From NCBI GenBank assembly GCA_003389215.1, contig QQVP01000032.1, positions 1-40,591 of the forward strand: a stretch of 40,591 nucleotides of DNA, read 5' to 3'. The DNA comes from Planctomycetota bacterium. Its GTDB lineage: Bacteria > Planctomycetota > Planctomycetia > Pirellulales > UBA7805. Numbering within the stretch: position 1 is the first letter of the stretch; each line of letters opens with the position of its first letter. The translations under genes were made by a program, and so were the position numbers. Positions 6,068-14,207 of the stretch are shown piece after piece. A model generated the notes under the pieces. It searched no databases, had not been told where the DNA came from, and saw nothing but the letters and a program-made list of their open reading frames with translations.

Positions 6068-8573
<2,506 letters not shown>

Positions 8574-8579
8574 GGGCAC

Positions 8580-8639
8580 GATCTTCATGTACGGATAACC
8601 GCAATTTGTCATGTTCTCGCATACGGACAGATGAAGATC
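8580..8639. repeat. Inverted repeat GATCTTCAT ... ATGAAGATC beside the left junction
   Basis: Perfect 9-bp arms at 8580-8588 and 8631-8639 are separated by 42 bp. The pair starts 7 bp inside the element. It could be a protein-binding site, part of a recombination site, or a loose hairpin after gyrB. Confidence 0.4.
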
Positions 8640-8650
8640 TTTGCGCTGTC

Positions 8651-8668
8651 TGATATAACGCATTGACA
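8651..8668 (+). promoter_or_regulatory. Candidate promoter elements for the Dcd-like gene
   Basis: Two overlapping possibilities are visible. One is an extended -10, TGATATAAC (8651-8659), without a matching -35. The other is a perfect TTGACA at 8663-8668, followed after 19 bp by TTGCAT (8688-8693). The ATG is at 8711. Neither is a complete consensus promoter. Confidence 0.35.
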
Positions 8669-8710
8669 TTGTGCGCGATGTTCGATGTTGCATAAATCCA
8701 TTCGATAGTT

Positions 8711-9730
8711 ATGTATCTGCCTGACCACGAACTCGAAGAAGTGCTGCCGCAGCTGAAGATTCAGTCTCTTTATGCAAAGCATCCGTTCGAGGCAGACGAG
8801 CAAGTCCAGCCATCATCAATTGATCTTCGATTGGATTACGTTTTCTGGCGACCGCGTAAACATCGGCCGATCGATCTGAGGCGAGCGGCTCTATCGGAGC
8901 TTGATCCCCGTAGGTATTGGGAGAAAGTCGAGATTCCCTTTGGTCAGGCGATTACGCTTAGAAAGGGGGAAATGCTCTTGGGTCGCACGGTGGAAACATT
9001 CACAATTCCGCCCCAGTACGCGGGAAAATTAGAGGGTCGAAGTTCGTTTGCACGGATGGGACTGGCTATCCACTGTTCGGCCGACTTTATCAATCCTGGA
9101 TATCGCGGCAACATGCCCCTTCAGCTAATCAACTATGGCCCCAGTTCCATCAAGCTGATTCCACTTATTCCCATATGTCAATTGGTCATTGTCAAGCTAT
9201 TGTCAGCTGCAAGCCGGCCATACAACGAGCGTCAGCCGTTTAGCAAATACATGGATGATGATGGAGGTCCGACGTATTGGTGGCGCGATCATCGAATCAA
9301 GAAACTGCAGGAATCGCTTGGTCGTCATCACGTTGAGTTGAGCATTCAAGACGAGATTTTGAAGCTCATAGGACCATGCGAGCCAGACTTGATCGAGCGA
9401 TTTGAGAGTACGGTAGAGCAACTTCGCATTGGCCAGCTAGCTAACGCCCGAGAGTTACTCGATCTTTTTTCCCAAGCAGAGAATACTGCGCGGAAATGGG
9501 CCAAATTCAAGCGAAATGCGTGGCATTGGGTAGGATTAACATTTCTTGCCATATCGATCGGCAGCTTTTTCGCCCCCCTGCCATCTTGGCACTTCTATGC
9601 CTCGCTCTTGGCCCTAACAGCTGTTTTCCTGAGCATCAGCGCTTGGATCTACTTTTGCTCCGAACCGCCGGGAGATTACCTTGGTGAGGCTGAACTAGGT
9701 GCGTTGATCCGGCAAAAAGATGGCACCTAA
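8711..9730 (+). CDS. dCTP-deaminase/dUTPase-fold protein with two C-terminal membrane helices, probable pseudoenzyme
   Basis: Residues about 30-180 of this 339-residue protein match Dcd: QPSSIDLRLDYVFW (33-46), then LEGRSSFARMGLAIH (107-121) and YNERQPFSKY (171-180). Alignment with E. coli Dcd is gap-free around the active site. R110, S111 and R115 are kept, but the Asp of IDPG is N128 and the catalytic Glu138 is Q138 (NMPLQLIN). Loss of both acidic groups predicts binding without deamination or hydrolysis. Residues about 195-265 are helical and charged. Two membrane helices follow (about 271-289 and 294-316, split by FAPLPSWHF), then a short polar tail. Known Dcd enzymes are soluble trimers of about 190 aa, so the helical linker and membrane part are additions. 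The start has no clear ribosome site. It is the main cargo of the gyrB-linked element. A nucleotide-sensing membrane effector is an inference. Confidence 0.8.
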   Translation: MYLPDHELEEVLPQLKIQSLYAKHPFEADEQVQPSSIDLRLDYVFWRPRKHRPIDLRRAALSELDPRRYWEKVEIPFGQAITLRKGEMLLGRTVETFTIPPQYAGKLEGRSSFARMGLAIHCSADFINPGYRGNMPLQLINYGPSSIKLIPLIPICQLVIVKLLSAASRPYNERQPFSKYMDDDGGPTYWWRDHRIKKLQESLGRHHVELSIQDEILKLIGPCEPDLIERFESTVEQLRIGQLANARELLDLFSQAENTARKWAKFKRNAWHWVGLTFLAISIGSFFAPLPSWHFYASLLALTAVFLSISAWIYFCSEPPGDYLGEAELGALIRQKDGT

Positions 9731-10002
9731 CGTGATGTCCTTACGCCATTCACTTCGTGAACGGCCCTACCGGAATCATCCCCTACGAATTCAAACCGCG
9801 GGACATCTTTACCGTTGACGGATACCTTTTCAAGGAAATCCACTAATGGTCGGGCCATTCGGCTTGGCGAACCATACAACGGAATGTAGATCACGTACTC
9901 TTCTGCGGTATCGACGTGTGTTGCCACACCCTCAACTCGATACATCCCCCCTTTAAAGTGCCGATACCGTCCACGTCGGAGTTGTTCTGCACAACGAGTC
10001 AT
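9727..10002 (-). CDS. DUF1653 family protein
   Basis: I start it at the ATG at 10002, because AAGGAG lies 8 bases upstream. A GTG at 10011 is in frame but would sit on that ribosome site. The 91-residue product matches DUF1653 along most of its length: RGRYRHFKGGMYRVEGVATH, then EEYVIYIPLYGSPSRMARPL and VPRFEFVGDD. DUF1653 proteins are small all-beta proteins of unknown function found widely in bacteria, often as stray genes. Its stop codon overlaps that of the convergent Dcd-like gene (CTAA shared), so the two are packed tail to tail with no room for a terminator. The low G+C matches the rest of the element. No role is assigned. Confidence 0.8.
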   Translation of the reverse strand: MTRCAEQLRRGRYRHFKGGMYRVEGVATHVDTAEEYVIYIPLYGSPSRMARPLVDFLEKVSVNGKDVPRFEFVGDDSGRAVHEVNGVRTSR

Positions 10003-10284
10003 GCCGGTCACTCCTTAAGTAGCAACGGGGCCAACGCATAAACATGCGTATAGATAAATACATGATAACGGATGGTTATCGCCTGGGCGCGTTTCACCAT
10101 AAGTTTTCAAAGTAAGCTACATGGTGCGGCATTTCTGGGCAGAATATACCTATCGTGGGATGCTGTCAACCACCTCGTTTGCCTATATAATCTAGGAGGC
10201 TCGAACACATAGACTGATATTTATGGGCGGGCTATACCTATCCGAGGCATCGAGCAAGCTATCCAGCGAGAGTTGGGCCATCAC
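10003..10284. promoter_or_regulatory. Divergent A/T-rich control region inside the element
   Basis: This 282-bp stretch separates the DUF1653 gene (minus) from the MraZ-like gene (plus). It contains a dyad GATAAC-GGATG-GTTATC (10064-10080), a direct repeat TATACCTATC (10145-10154 and 10233-10242) placed either side of a promoter, and a purine-rich AGGAGG (10194-10199) not followed by a start codon. No gene is credible in it. It looks like the regulatory centre of the element. Confidence 0.5.
10164..10191 (+). promoter_or_regulatory. Sigma70-like promoter for the MraZ-like gene
   Basis: TGTCAA (10164-10169), 16-bp spacer, perfect TATAAT (10186-10191). Transcription would start near 10198, about 87 bp before the ATG, leaving a leader that includes the second TATACCTATC repeat. 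Confidence 0.5.
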
Positions 10285-10830
10285 ATGGGCAAGCCTCAAA
10301 GAAAAAAACTTGACGAGGAAAGGCCAGGTCCTTTTGATTCGTGGATATTGACAGTTGATTCGCAACACAGAATCCGTGCGCCCGCCGAACTATCCTTGAT
10401 GACTGGTTGGCTACGTAAGCACGCAAAGAGCGTCGCATGTCGTTGCTTTGTTGGGCCTATCGGCGGAATTCGAATCGTACCAACGGACGGGCAGAACATG
10501 GTCGAGCACCGTCGCGTCTTGACGATGCTGGCTAGAGACGCGTCGCCATTGGATGAGCCAACGAGTGAGTTAACGGCATATGCTAGATACTTTTCGACAA
10601 GTGCAGAGGTTTCTATTCGACTGGAGAATAATCGACTCAGCTTCACGATTCCGGAACGTGTCAGGAAGCTTCGCGTAGCCCCAAGCAGTGGAGAGACGGC
10701 CGTAGCATTCGCCACAAGAAACATGCTGGAGATATGGCCGTGTGAGCAATGGTTGAGTCATGTACGAGCCTTCGCGGGCGAGTACGCCGATCAAATTGCC
10801 GTGCTAGCGGAACGTGCTGAAGAGCATTAA
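10285..10830 (+). CDS. MraZ/AbrB-like putative DNA-binding protein
   Basis: The start is ATG at 10285; a TTG at 10273 is in frame and possible. The 181-residue product has two segments resembling the SpoVT-AbrB halves of MraZ. The first is [18 protein letters not shown] near the N-terminus. The second, in the C-terminal half, reads [20 protein letters not shown] and then [18 protein letters not shown]; the LEIW motif is typical of MraZ. True MraZ is about 150 aa, sits ahead of division genes and is a repressor, whereas this gene has no such neighbours. The last base of its TAA stop is the first base of the right gyrB repeat, so the element's coding content runs exactly to the junction. A role as element regulator is likely but inferred. 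Confidence 0.6.
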
Positions 10831-10971
10831 CGCTGCTGCAGGTCACCATGGACGACGTCTCGGCGGCCGACGACCTGTTCCGCGTGTTGATGGGCGACAA
10901 GGTCGAACCGCGCCGCGAATTCATCGAGCAGCACGCCCTCGACGTGACGAATCTCGACGTGTAGGGCGGCG
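10830..10971 (+). repeat. Right copy of the 142-bp direct repeat (orphan gyrB 3' end)
   Basis: It is identical to 8432-8573 and contains the last 45 gyrB codons with stop, but lacks any upstream gyrB sequence or start. It is a gene fragment marking the right junction of the inserted block. Confidence 0.97.
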
Positions 10972-11294
10972 TTGCCGACTTCGGGTTCTTGCGGTCGCTG
11001 CACACGCTCTCGCGTGCGGGTTGTAGCGACGGATCCGTTTCTGACGGCCAGCGCCGTGTCGAACCGGGCCGCCTCGTAAGTCTTCGGCCGGTCAGGACCT
11101 GGATTGCCTCGCCCAGGGCCGGACCGCGCCCCCTCTGCGACCTACTCTTTGACTAGAGGGTCTCATGTTTATTAAGGGGACTCAGGCGCGCGGGGTGCCG
11201 AAATCGTCGGTCGCCGCGGGCGCGTTGGTGCGGGTTCTTGTCCCCCCTGTTGCTCGCCAGGAAACAGCTGGTCGCGATGAGAGAGCGGGTCGCC
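10972..11294. other. Intergenic stretch after the right junction
   Basis: This 323-bp stretch has host-like G+C and no convincing gene. A two-part hairpin at 10994-11030 (GTCGCT with AGCGAC; inner CACGC with GCGTG) could be the original gyrB downstream terminator, though no T-run follows. TTGACT at 11149-11154 could be a -35 for the next gene, but no good -10 is seen. Confidence 0.4.
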
Positions 11295-14207
11295 ATGAAA
11301 GACATTCAAGAAATCTGCGGGTCCCTGGTCGCCGTGTTGCGGGCGGCCACTTTGGTGTTCGTGGCGGCGTGCCTGTGGTCGCTGACCGGCGTGGCCGTGG
11401 CCGCCGACGTCTCGCCCATCACCTCCTGGACGACCGGCACCACGGGACCGAGTCGCACGACTTCGGGCGACGATCGGCTGCTGATCTTCACCGCCGGCAT
11501 GGAAGACGGGGCCACCGAGACCGTGACCTCGGTGACTTACGGCGGCCAGGCGCTGACGGAAATCATCGGCCAAACCACCGGCTCGGGCTTCTACGGCGGC
11601 GCGCAAATCTTCTACCTTGACGAGGCGGGCATTTCCGCGGCCACCAGCAACACCTTTTCGGTGACCTGGTCGGGGAACGTCAACGTCTCGTTCTACGCCG
11701 CGCGGATGTACGAGAACGTCGACCAGACGACGCCGATTCGCGACTCCGATCAGGGCAACAGCCCTTCCTCGTCCCCCAACCCGATCACCACCCCGGCGAT
11801 GACCGTCGTGGCGGGCGATTACGTGGTGGCGGCGGCTCAGTGCGGCAACCAGAACAGCTACACCTGGAACAACAGCTTCACCGAGGGCACCGACTCCGGC
11901 AGCGGCTCGGCCCAACATTCGACGGCGGACAAGTTGATCACTTCGAGCGGCACCCAGGTCGCTTCGGCAACCAACGGAGGCCCGAATCGCCAGGTCATCT
12001 TGGGCGCCGTCTTGCAAAGCGTCCCGGAGGTTGCGGAGATCTTCTATGTGCGGCCCGACGGAAACGACACCAATTCGGGAACCGGTTCGTCGGCCAGCGA
12101 GGCCTGGGCGACGTTGGCCGCAGCCGTGGACAAGACCGCGCTCGGCCCGGCCGACATTGTGTACGTCATGACAGGGACCTACACGGGCGAGATTACGCCC
12201 AGCGTCGACGGCAGCTCGTCGCAACCGATCCAGTTCATTGCCGACACATCGGGGGCCCAGTTCGGCACGGCCGGTGCGGTCACGATAACGACCACCGGCG
12301 GCAACGAGGTGTTCGACTTGAACGACGATGACTATCTGGAATTTGTCGGCTTTACGATCCAGGCGGTCGACAACGGTTCGGGGCAGCAAGCGATCGAACT
12401 CGACAACTCCGACGGGATCGCCTTTCGCCAGTGCGAGATCTACGACGCCGACCGCCACGGCGTCGACGTGGGCAACAATTCGTCGTTGGAACTGGAAAAT
12501 TGCCTCATCCGCGACAACGAGAGTGACGGGATTCGCTTATCGAGCGGCACGCTCGTGGTGATGAATTGTACGATCGTCAATAGCGGGAGCGACGGTATCG
12601 AGCAGGACGGCGGGTCCTCGACGATCACGAACTCGATCATTGCCAATAACTCATCCGATGGTCTCGATCGCGACGGCGGGACGATGACGCATACGTACAA
12701 CTGCGTCTTTGGCAGCGGCGACCAGGACTTCGAAGGCGTGAGCCAAGCGACCGGCGAGATCACGTCCGATCCGTTGTTTACCTCCGCCAGCGACTTTCAT
12801 CTGCTGTCGAGCTCCCCCTGTATCGATACGGGAACGGCCAGCGGCAGCCCGCCGAATGTCGATCTGGAGAACGTCGAGCGACCCGCCGGCAGCGGCTACG
12901 ACATGGGTTGTTACGAATTCAGGTCCGAGAAAGGCCACTGGGCCCTCGACGAGACGAGCGGCACCACGGCTGCCGATTCTTCCGGGGCCGGCAACGACGG
13001 CACGCTCAGCGGTACCACGTTCACCAGTAGCTCGGTCAGCGTTTGTCCCACCGGTAGCACGGGTCTCTCGCTGGACGGCACGAACGACTATGTCGACTTG
13101 CCCGATCTCGACTTCGATTACTCGGGTGGCTTCAGCATCGCGATGTGGATCAAACCGACGGCGACCCCGTCCACGCACTGCGCGCTGCTCGGCATTTCGA
13201 ACGGCCAGGACGTCGACGACATCTGGTTCGGCTGGGTGCCGGGCACGGGATTGGAAATCTACATCTCCGATACCACGGACGGCGGGACGACGCGCTGGCT
13301 CGACGACCTGAACGATCCGACGCTCGATGTGTGGCACCATGTCGCGGTGACGGTCGACGGCTCGGGCAATGCCACCATGTATCGCAACGGAATCTCCATT
13401 GCGACGGGGTACTTGAGTTTGCCGGCCAATACAAATCGCACGGAAAACCACATCGGCGACTCGGTGTGGCTCGATCATTTTGAGGGCGAGATCGACGACG
13501 TCCGCTTCGAGGCGGGCGTCTACACCGCGGCCGAGGTCAGCGCCCTGTACGGCTTGCTGGCCCACTGGAAGTTCGACGAAACGAGCGGCACCACGTTCGT
13601 CGATTCGTCGGGCAACGGCCACGACGGCGCCTTCGCAGGGGGCACGCCGACCTGGGTAGATGGCAAGGTCAACAACGCCGTCGACTTCGACACCTCGGGC
13701 GACTATGCCGACACCGACGCCAACTTCACGCCACCGGCGACCGGCACGATCGCCTTCTGGATGAAGGTCGACGGGGCGCCCTCGGCCCGCGAGCGAATCC
13801 TGGGCCTGGGGGGCGACTGGGAAATTCGTCACGAACCGAACGGAGAGCTCACGTTCGATATCAATGGCGAGGGTGGCTCGGACGTGGGTGCCTTTTTCCA
13901 CTCCAACACGAAGGTCACCAGCTCGTCGAGGTGGTACCACGTCGCCGCCGTGTTCGACGACGTCACCGATACCTTCGAGGTCTACATCGACGGGGTGCTC
14001 GACAACAGCGGCACGAACACCATGACGGCCCAGTCCGCCAACATCCTCTCTTTCGGCACGCGGACCGGATCGACCGAGTACTGGGTCGGAAAGCTGGACG
14101 AAGTGCAGATCTTCGATCGCATGCTCTGCAGCGACGAGATCCAGGAGATCTACAGCTCCGCACCCACGACCACGCTCCGCATCATCCGCTGGCTCGAACA
14201 ACGGTAG
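11295..14207 (+). CDS. Large exported beta-helix/LamG protein
   Basis: I start at ATG 11295, which gives a clean signal peptide (MKDIQEICGSLVAVLRAATL, hydrophobic core, VAVAA) and has GAGAG about 10 bases upstream. ATG 11277 is an alternative. The 970-residue product has a beta-rich N-terminal domain of about 230 residues (VTSVTYGGQALTEI) known from other planctomycete surface proteins. Next comes a right-handed beta-helix region starting YVRPDGNDTNSGTG with repeated DGI/NNSS turns. Two LamG/concanavalin-like domains follow, each starting HWALDETSGTTAADSSG or HWKFDETSGTTFVDSSG. It ends TTTLRIIRWLEQR without a recognised anchor. Such proteins usually bind or act on polysaccharides at the cell surface. 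No catalytic residues can be named. It is the first gene to the right of the gyrB insertion. Confidence 0.8.
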   Translation: MKDIQEICGSLVAVLRAATLVFVAACLWSLTGVAVAADVSPITSWTTGTTGPSRTTSGDDRLLIFTAGMEDGATETVTSVTYGGQALTEIIGQTTGSGFYGGAQIFYLDEAGISAATSNTFSVTWSGNVNVSFYAARMYENVDQTTPIRDSDQGNSPSSSPNPITTPAMTVVAGDYVVAAAQCGNQNSYTWNNSFTEGTDSGSGSAQHSTADKLITSSGTQVASATNGGPNRQVILGAVLQSVPEVAEIFYVRPDGNDTNSGTGSSASEAWATLAAAVDKTALGPADIVYVMTGTYTGEITPSVDGSSSQPIQFIADTSGAQFGTAGAVTITTTGGNEVFDLNDDDYLEFVGFTIQAVDNGSGQQAIELDNSDGIAFRQCEIYDADRHGVDVGNNSSLELENCLIRDNESDGIRLSSGTLVVMNCTIVNSGSDGIEQDGGSSTITNSIIANNSSDGLDRDGGTMTHTYNCVFGSGDQDFEGVSQATGEITSDPLFTSASDFHLLSSSPCIDTGTASGSPPNVDLENVERPAGSGYDMGCYEFRSEKGHWALDETSGTTAADSSGAGNDGTLSGTTFTSSSVSVCPTGSTGLSLDGTNDYVDLPDLDFDYSGGFSIAMWIKPTATPSTHCALLGISNGQDVDDIWFGWVPGTGLEIYISDTTDGGTTRWLDDLNDPTLDVWHHVAVTVDGSGNATMYRNGISIATGYLSLPANTNRTENHIGDSVWLDHFEGEIDDVRFEAGVYTAAEVSALYGLLAHWKFDETSGTTFVDSSGNGHDGAFAGGTPTWVDGKVNNAVDFDTSGDYADTDANFTPPATGTIAFWMKVDGAPSARERILGLGGDWEIRHEPNGELTFDINGEGGSDVGAFFHSNTKVTSSSRWYHVAAVFDDVTDTFEVYIDGVLDNSGTNTMTAQSANILSFGTRTGSTEYWVGKLDEVQIFDRMLCSDEIQEIYSSAPTTTLRIIRWLEQR

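Follow-up and report, generated by a model that had tools for sequence, protein, structure and literature searches.

The closest described relatives of the protein reported here, DCD-2TM, are the dCTP deaminase Dcd and the bifunctional Dcd-Dut of the dUTPase superfamily, with which it shares the fold, residues S111, R115, Y171, K179 and Y180, and the HxxA/G loop. When Dcd binds a thymine nucleotide, the so-called allosteric loop (HVTA) moves cooperatively into the channel at the centre of the trimer (PMC4827122); dUTPases use a conserved Asp to position the water for catalysis (PMC3905902). Compared with Dcd, the DCD-2TM family has Asn for D128 in every listed row and mostly Gln for E138, and where Dcd has a short C-terminus it carries the DDDGGPSYWWRD signature, a helical linker and two predicted membrane helices.

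In the Clover system (CloA/CloB), cellular dTTP is read directly by a defence protein, which senses phage-driven rises of this nucleotide (PMC12265719). Clover is a precedent for dTTP sensing in defence, with CloA a dGTPase enzyme. CloA carries an HD-type dNTPase domain, and no Pfam match to such a domain was obtained for the protein studied here. CBASS Cap15 and type III CRISPR Cap1 and Csx23 combine, as DCD-2TM does, a cytoplasmic nucleotide-binding domain with membrane helices, and the Pycsar membrane effector is a two-helix membrane effector of nucleotide-signal defence. As far as the accessible descriptions go, the CBASS and CRISPR effectors read cyclic or oligonucleotide messengers made by a partner enzyme, whereas the putative sensor of DCD-2TM is the DCD fold; a scan of seven window proteins from around the gene recognised no cyclase. 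AvcD-type anti-phage deaminases share with DCD-2TM the deoxycytidine nucleotides and the proposed role in phage defence, but AvcD is described, in the partial text available, as an active deaminase. The AvcD fold is zinc-dependent and unrelated to DCD; anti-phage deoxycytidylate/dCTP deaminases were reportedly described by Tal et al. in 2022. Finally, the WYL domain is an Sm-like SH3 barrel proposed, in the accessible text, to be a nucleotide-binding regulator of defence systems (PMC4012209).

The window, that is, the whole 40,591-nucleotide stretch of DNA analysed, carries the DCD-2TM gene together with the features collected in Table 1. The original prediction had read from the letters alone a dCTP-deaminase fold in which Asn128 and Gln138 occupy the catalytic positions, followed by a helical linker and two membrane helices. 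This observation is confirmed. The protein matches the Pfam DCD family (PF22769, E = 3.9e-33) and the NCBIfam model dCTP_deam (TIGR02274), whose cut-off of 92.8 bits it passes with 112.5. In an AlphaFold2 monomer model (pLDDT 86.1, pTM 0.73) a DCD-like beta domain precedes the helices, and a Foldseek comparison of this model with the PDB ranks Dcd structures first (4a6a, 3.6e-16; 1xs1, 3.6e-15). The DCD domain is mostly confident in the model, with weaker stretches at residues 51-70 and 171-180, and is followed by helices 187-205, 210-220, 225-237, 246-285, 293-316 and 326-338; the linker is predicted by the model, the two membrane helices by model and hydropathy alike.

Table 1. Features of the DCD-2TM locus (window coordinates)
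Feature	Position	Strand	Evidence or remark
142-bp direct repeat, left copy: gyrB 3' end and 7 bases beyond	8432..8573	.	
Low-GC island between the repeats, 2,256 bp	8574..10829	.	50.4% GC
DCD-2TM gene, 339 aa	8711..9730	+	ORF, family matches, model, fold search, homologs
DCD-2TM make-up: inactive-looking dCTP-deaminase domain, helical linker, two predicted membrane helices	8711..9730	+	
DCD domain, residues 23-161	8777..9193	+	Pfam PF22769 match
Asn128 codon AAT (Asp in Dcd)	9092..9094	+	alignment
Gln138 codon CAG (catalytic Glu138 of E. coli Dcd)	9122..9124	+	alignment
Signature DDDGGPTYWW, residues 182-191, in place of the Dcd C-terminal segment after the KY motif	9254..9283	+	
Helical linker, residues ~187-270	9269..9520	+	model
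Predicted membrane helix 1, residues 274-292	9530..9586	+	hydropathy; model helix 246-285
Predicted membrane helix 2, residues 299-317	9605..9661	+	hydropathy; model helix 293-316
DUF1653 gene, 94 aa, convergent, 4-bp overlap with DCD-2TM	9727..10011	-	PF07866, 4.4e-22
185-aa ORF in the island	10273..10830	+	no family match
142-bp direct repeat, right copy, 100% identical to left	10830..10971	.	

When the protein is aligned to the Dcd of E. coli (1xs1) and that of M. tuberculosis (2qxx), N128 aligns with the Asp of the IDPG motif and Q138 with the Glu, opposite D128 and E138 of the E. coli enzyme as predicted. R110, S111, R115, Y171, N172, R174, K179 and Y180 are all present in the window protein; we take R110, S111, R115, Y171 and K179/Y180 to be nucleotide-contact residues of Dcd. 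The loop equivalent to HVTA reads HCSA here and HCTG in the family consensus, with the His kept. Since the window's genome encodes a D/E DCD (Asp and Glu at the two positions) elsewhere (L001, contig C5), a housekeeping Dcd role for the window gene is unlikely.

A homolog search of 5.8 billion proteins returned 403 relatives, and the conservation counts refer to the 120 listed, query included, most of them 320-350 aa long and 42-59% identical. The window protein is a member of a large family without a name, in which the pairing of a dCTP-deaminase domain with membrane helices, first noticed in one sequence, is conserved and widespread. Asn128 is found in all 120 listed proteins, and its presence is not a matter of chance. 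The loss of both acids, as claimed originally, and the conservation of N128 and Q138, which was to be checked in homologs, thus hold at position 128 only in full: position 138 is Q in 83 listed proteins and E in 37, with I or L at two loci (L035/L004 and L044), so amidation of both acids is not universal. S111, S112, R115, Y171, Y180, D183, D184, G185, P187, W190, W191 and D193 are invariant among the 120; 119 of them have R110, 116 have K179, and the motif DDGxPxxWW is found in 114. In 117, however, Gly stands in place of N172, and no more than 29 retain R174; the binding frame that had been described as kept is complete in the window protein, but this part of it is not conserved in the family.

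Among the matches listed, 17 distinct N128 loci were collected from 16 genomes and one viral contig; as a sample, they are neither complete nor random. The fetched loci hold 128 distinct DCD ORFs: 105 with D/E, these 17 with N128 (10 N/Q, 5 N/E, 1 N/I and 1 N/L at positions 128/138) and six others (four H/E, one D/Q and one Q/E). All 17 N128 ORFs are at least 311 aa long and extend past the DCD domain. In a tree of 127 rows, built from 22 or 23 rows per subfamily (the second is described below) and, of the L050-L112 loci, roughly one in four, the 60 N128 rows all fall on one side of one branch (support 99/98, with the bootstrap unsettled and several long branches). The split repeats without columns 128 and 138 (42 of 80 rows, SH-aLRT 96), in a tree that excludes the long-branch L006, L064, L134 and L136 and rows with <130 filled columns. 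This supports, at the level of sequence, that N128 marks a separate group of DCD proteins. A separate long-branched group is formed by Planctomycete DCD proteins with His128 and Glu138 (L005, L006, L007 and L008).

A second N/Q subfamily emerged from L045 (Prevotellaceae) and L089 (Eubacteriales), whose DCD domains carry N/Q and whose tails are unlike those of the first. A search with both gave 272 proteins, and the 120 listed all have N128 and Q138 with G124, while the DDGGP motif is in none of them. The most hydrophobic stretch of the tail stays below a Kyte-Doolittle (KD) value of ~1.25 in 100 of the 120 and reaches ~1.5 in 20. The tails (L045, L089, P0123-P0242) are helical and of at least two looks; a model of one is poor in parts (pLDDT 75.2, pTM 0.44), the 50 PDB matches shown are all of DCD/dUTPase fold, and Pfam gives only DCD/dUTPase families. 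The dead-looking sensor would accordingly occur with at least two kinds of output. DUF1653 is present at both second-subfamily loci seen, and P0230, in a cluster of 34 sequences, is a single ORF joining DUF1653 to an N128/Q138 DCD.

The two sets of counts bear on whether these proteins are still enzymes. The chief finding that weakens a complete loss of catalysis is that a third of the listed first-subfamily proteins retain E138, and some of these could be enzymes. DCD-2TM would in that case be an active or altered-specificity membrane-anchored enzyme that processes a pyrimidine nucleotide, perhaps a modified phage one, through E138 or another residue. Such an enzyme would be compatible with the intact fold, with several intact nucleotide-contact residues, with the dCTP deaminase name still given by the NCBI equivalog model, and with a nucleoside 2-deoxyribosyltransferase-like gene that overlaps downstream at L042. 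N128, however, is present in 240 of the 240 listed rows of both subfamilies, position 138 is mostly Q (I or L at two loci), and structure titles record the variants E145Q of M. jannaschii and E138A of E. coli as crystallised with ligands. Both variants are said to be inactive, and the water-orienting Asp of dUTPases is presumably the equivalent of D128. We consider an enzymatic role quite unlikely. The window protein and two tested second-subfamily members all score above the TIGR02274 cut-off, so automatic annotation would call them dCTP deaminases.

At a lenient threshold, two hydrophobic stretches are seen in the tails of 106 of 115 first-subfamily rows and one in the other 9, five further rows being too short; at a strict threshold (19 residues, KD 1.5), 43 of 120 tails have two, 58 have one and 19 none. 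The mean number of K+R is 5.7 before helix 1, 0.5 in the loop and 3.6 after helix 2, a distribution that favours a predicted topology with both ends in the cytoplasm (N-in/C-in). At L033 the N/Q domain is kept and the hydrophobic stretches are gone from the tail. A search with the tail alone found five proteins, each with a DCD domain, which gives no sign of this tail on other sensors within the little reach of a single-sequence search.

Members with N128 occur in at least ten phyla, including two candidate phyla; the named ones are Planctomycetota, Actinomycetota, Acidobacteriota, Bacteroidota, Ignavibacteriota, Spirochaetota, Pseudomonadota and Bacillota. Within 392 Planctomycetota genomes, a list from which the gene-bearing G056 is absent, the N128-family motif is found in one, the window's own. 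In five of the 16 genomes (G447, G451, G454, G455 and G456) a short, dUTPase-like match is all that was found of DCD besides the N128 gene, so a housekeeping role is formally possible there. One viral contig in about 2.9 million carries the signature, no plasmid record covers 80% of P0001 and no phage record covers 80% of the homolog P0094; the gene was accordingly discarded as a phage gene.

In the window, the gene lies in an island of 50.4% GC, against 62.5% in gyrB, 63.3% downstream and 64% in the window overall. With its duplicated ends, the island looks like a recent insertion at gyrB, or possibly an assembly artefact; no second copy was found in the window's genome among the matches listed. 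The 185-aa ORF reaches just into the right repeat, whose first base is the last of its stop codon. This ORF has no relative in 53 other genomes, a possible resemblance to MraZ/AbrB is backed by no family library, and its membership in a DCD-2TM system is unsupported. A large ORF right after the island, at 11238-14207, has matches of two kinds, beta-helix and laminin-G-like (Laminin_G_3). In PADLOC, the window DCD-2TM protein matches no family at E 1, and neither the DUF1653 protein nor the 185-aa ORF matches any at E 0.01.

Two small genes recur beside N128 genes; like the second subfamily and the island, they had no place in the original prediction. A WYL-like gene of ~67-81 aa, which differs from known WYL regulators in that its product is free-standing, lies directly upstream of the DCD gene at 11 of the 17 N128 loci, and a DUF1653 gene lies within 271 bp at 9, adjacent or one gene away; one or both partners are found at 15 loci and both at 5. 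The gene order DUF1653, WYL-like, DCD-2TM is seen at three Streptomyces loci. From this three-gene set the window departs, its DUF1653 gene being convergent and a WYL-like gene being absent from its whole genome in a profile search. One of the two loci with no partner, L036, is cut by a contig end, the single WYL-like match of its genome lying near another contig end; the other, L042, belongs to a genome with no WYL-like or DUF1653 matches. At L042 (Bacteroidetes), the nucleoside 2-deoxyribosyltransferase-like gene occupies 10978-11508, with a 4-bp overlap with DCD-2TM.

The association was examined genome-wide. DUF1653 is found in 9 of the 16 genomes, in single copy and each time beside the N128 gene, the window's own being the sole match in its genome; the WYL-like profile matches once in each of 11 genomes, 10 times adjacent to the N128 gene. 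Neither partner was found near D/E genes at 106 loci, among which haloarchaea and viral contigs are over-represented, nor at the 13 loci fetched for other DCD/dUTPase genes of the same genomes (a control of 13 loci plus L001, the 16 genomes having 29 such other matches). Of 392 Planctomycetota genomes, 28 contain DUF1653 (the window's and 27 others), and no N128 DCD lies within ~1.5 kb on each side at 28 loci of these 27 others; DUF1653 is thus not specific to N128 genes. At L037, the small protein encoded upstream matches PF13280 at the borderline (E 3.4e-4, 21.0 against a cut-off of 21.8), and the WYL-like profile found no relative among solved structures (one match, E 0.41), while a DUF1653 protein matches 3be3, an uncharacterised solved protein (E 1e-4). 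Both partners would be small barrels.

WYL-like and DCD ORFs are separated or overlapped by 1-22 bp in 9 of 11 loci, the distances at L033 and L041 being 82 and 114 bp with uncertain ORF starts. Such tight spacing, together with the predicted membrane hairpin, could reflect a toxin-antitoxin-like unit, in which DCD-2TM would be a membrane-active toxin held by the WYL-like and DUF1653 proteins. The partners are dispensable, however, with 6 of 17 loci lacking an adjacent WYL-like gene and 8 of 17 lacking DUF1653. In the second subfamily, moreover, the DUF1653 gene accompanies proteins that mostly have no hydrophobic tail, as judged from the two loci seen. A toxin-antitoxin arrangement is in our view highly doubtful.

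Defence-like neighbours were seen at three loci. At L043 the gene is embedded in a type I restriction system, with an hsdM-like gene on one side and an hsdS-like gene on the other, and a helicase gene resembling GajB is also present; the flanking genes of L038 match PDC-M51A and Ppl, as they are called in PADLOC; and an OLD-like ATPase lies near L036. The defence neighbourhood is clear at L038 and L043 and suggestive at L036; because the neighbours scanned were hand-picked, these are examples and give no rate. In a second hand-picked panel of 10 neighbours, PADLOC matched only a Crp-like cNMP-binding protein and an ATPase that we read as ClpB-like. About 1 kb past the Streptomyces DCD-2TM cassette at L037, positions 12168-13826 hold a cNMP-binding Crp-like gene and an unassigned 280-aa gene.

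Since no recognised defence neighbour is present at most loci, among the proteins scanned, and the ligand would be a core metabolite, DCD-2TM could also be a metabolic or regulatory sensor of the nucleotide pool with no part in defence, tuning for example the membrane or replication to dNTP supply. The patchy distribution over at least ten phyla argues against such a role, as do several signs at individual loci: the window's low-GC island with its duplicated ends, a low-GC3 gene amid GC-richer genes at L034, a serine-recombinase gene preceding the DCD gene at L033, a phage terminase on the viral contig L113, and the defence genes at L036, L038 and L043. We regard a sensor confined to metabolism as unlikely.

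Our preferred reading, to which we give a probability of about 0.5, is a nucleotide sensor that would act on the membrane upon a change in pyrimidine dNTPs, probably within an anti-phage cassette. A pyrimidine-dNTP sensor with a membrane output is favoured because of the loop precedent in Dcd, the largely kept pocket, the Clover system and the WYL regulators; a sensor/effector system would also be in keeping with the two recurrent small partners and with the defence-type genes around three of the loci. Mechanistically, we infer that DCD-2TM would assemble as the usual DCD homotrimer, each inter-subunit pocket taking a pyrimidine dNTP, with dTTP or dCTP as the leading candidates, and that in the absence of the acids the ligand would not be turned over. 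As the conserved DDDGGPSYWWRD segment after the KY motif runs directly into the linker, a change in binding could pass through signature and linker to a six-helix membrane bundle and gate it. The part of the two small partner proteins would be to fix the threshold or to bring in a second ligand, and a role of the whole in defence is likewise inferred.

Taken more broadly, these elements may form a new, as yet unnamed anti-phage cassette of DUF1653, WYL-like and DCD-2TM genes, in which a dead dCTP deaminase would read the pyrimidine dNTP pool of the cell and open the membrane with no second messenger. Hundreds of proteins scored as dCTP deaminase would then be such sensors, with a sister branch wiring the dead sensor to mostly non-membrane tails. 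We put this wider proposal forward tentatively, at somewhat less than even odds. Nucleotide-responsive membrane systems are known; in the open-access literature, which leaves most subscription papers outside, no description was found of this sensor fold in that role, whether under DCD-like sensors, DUF1653, COG4728/COG0717 or their combination with WYL or 2TM, which accords with the original remark that no described system with this pairing was known.

If the preferred reading is true, an enzyme of DNA precursor metabolism became a sensor through acid-to-amide swaps and an added tail, and bacteria would sense phage through changes in dNTP levels by means of a one-protein membrane switch. The curated model TIGR02274, above whose cut-off all three tested proteins score, would mislabel such proteins as active enzyme, and DUF1653, hardly mentioned in the open-access literature as far as it was covered, would gain its first functional setting.
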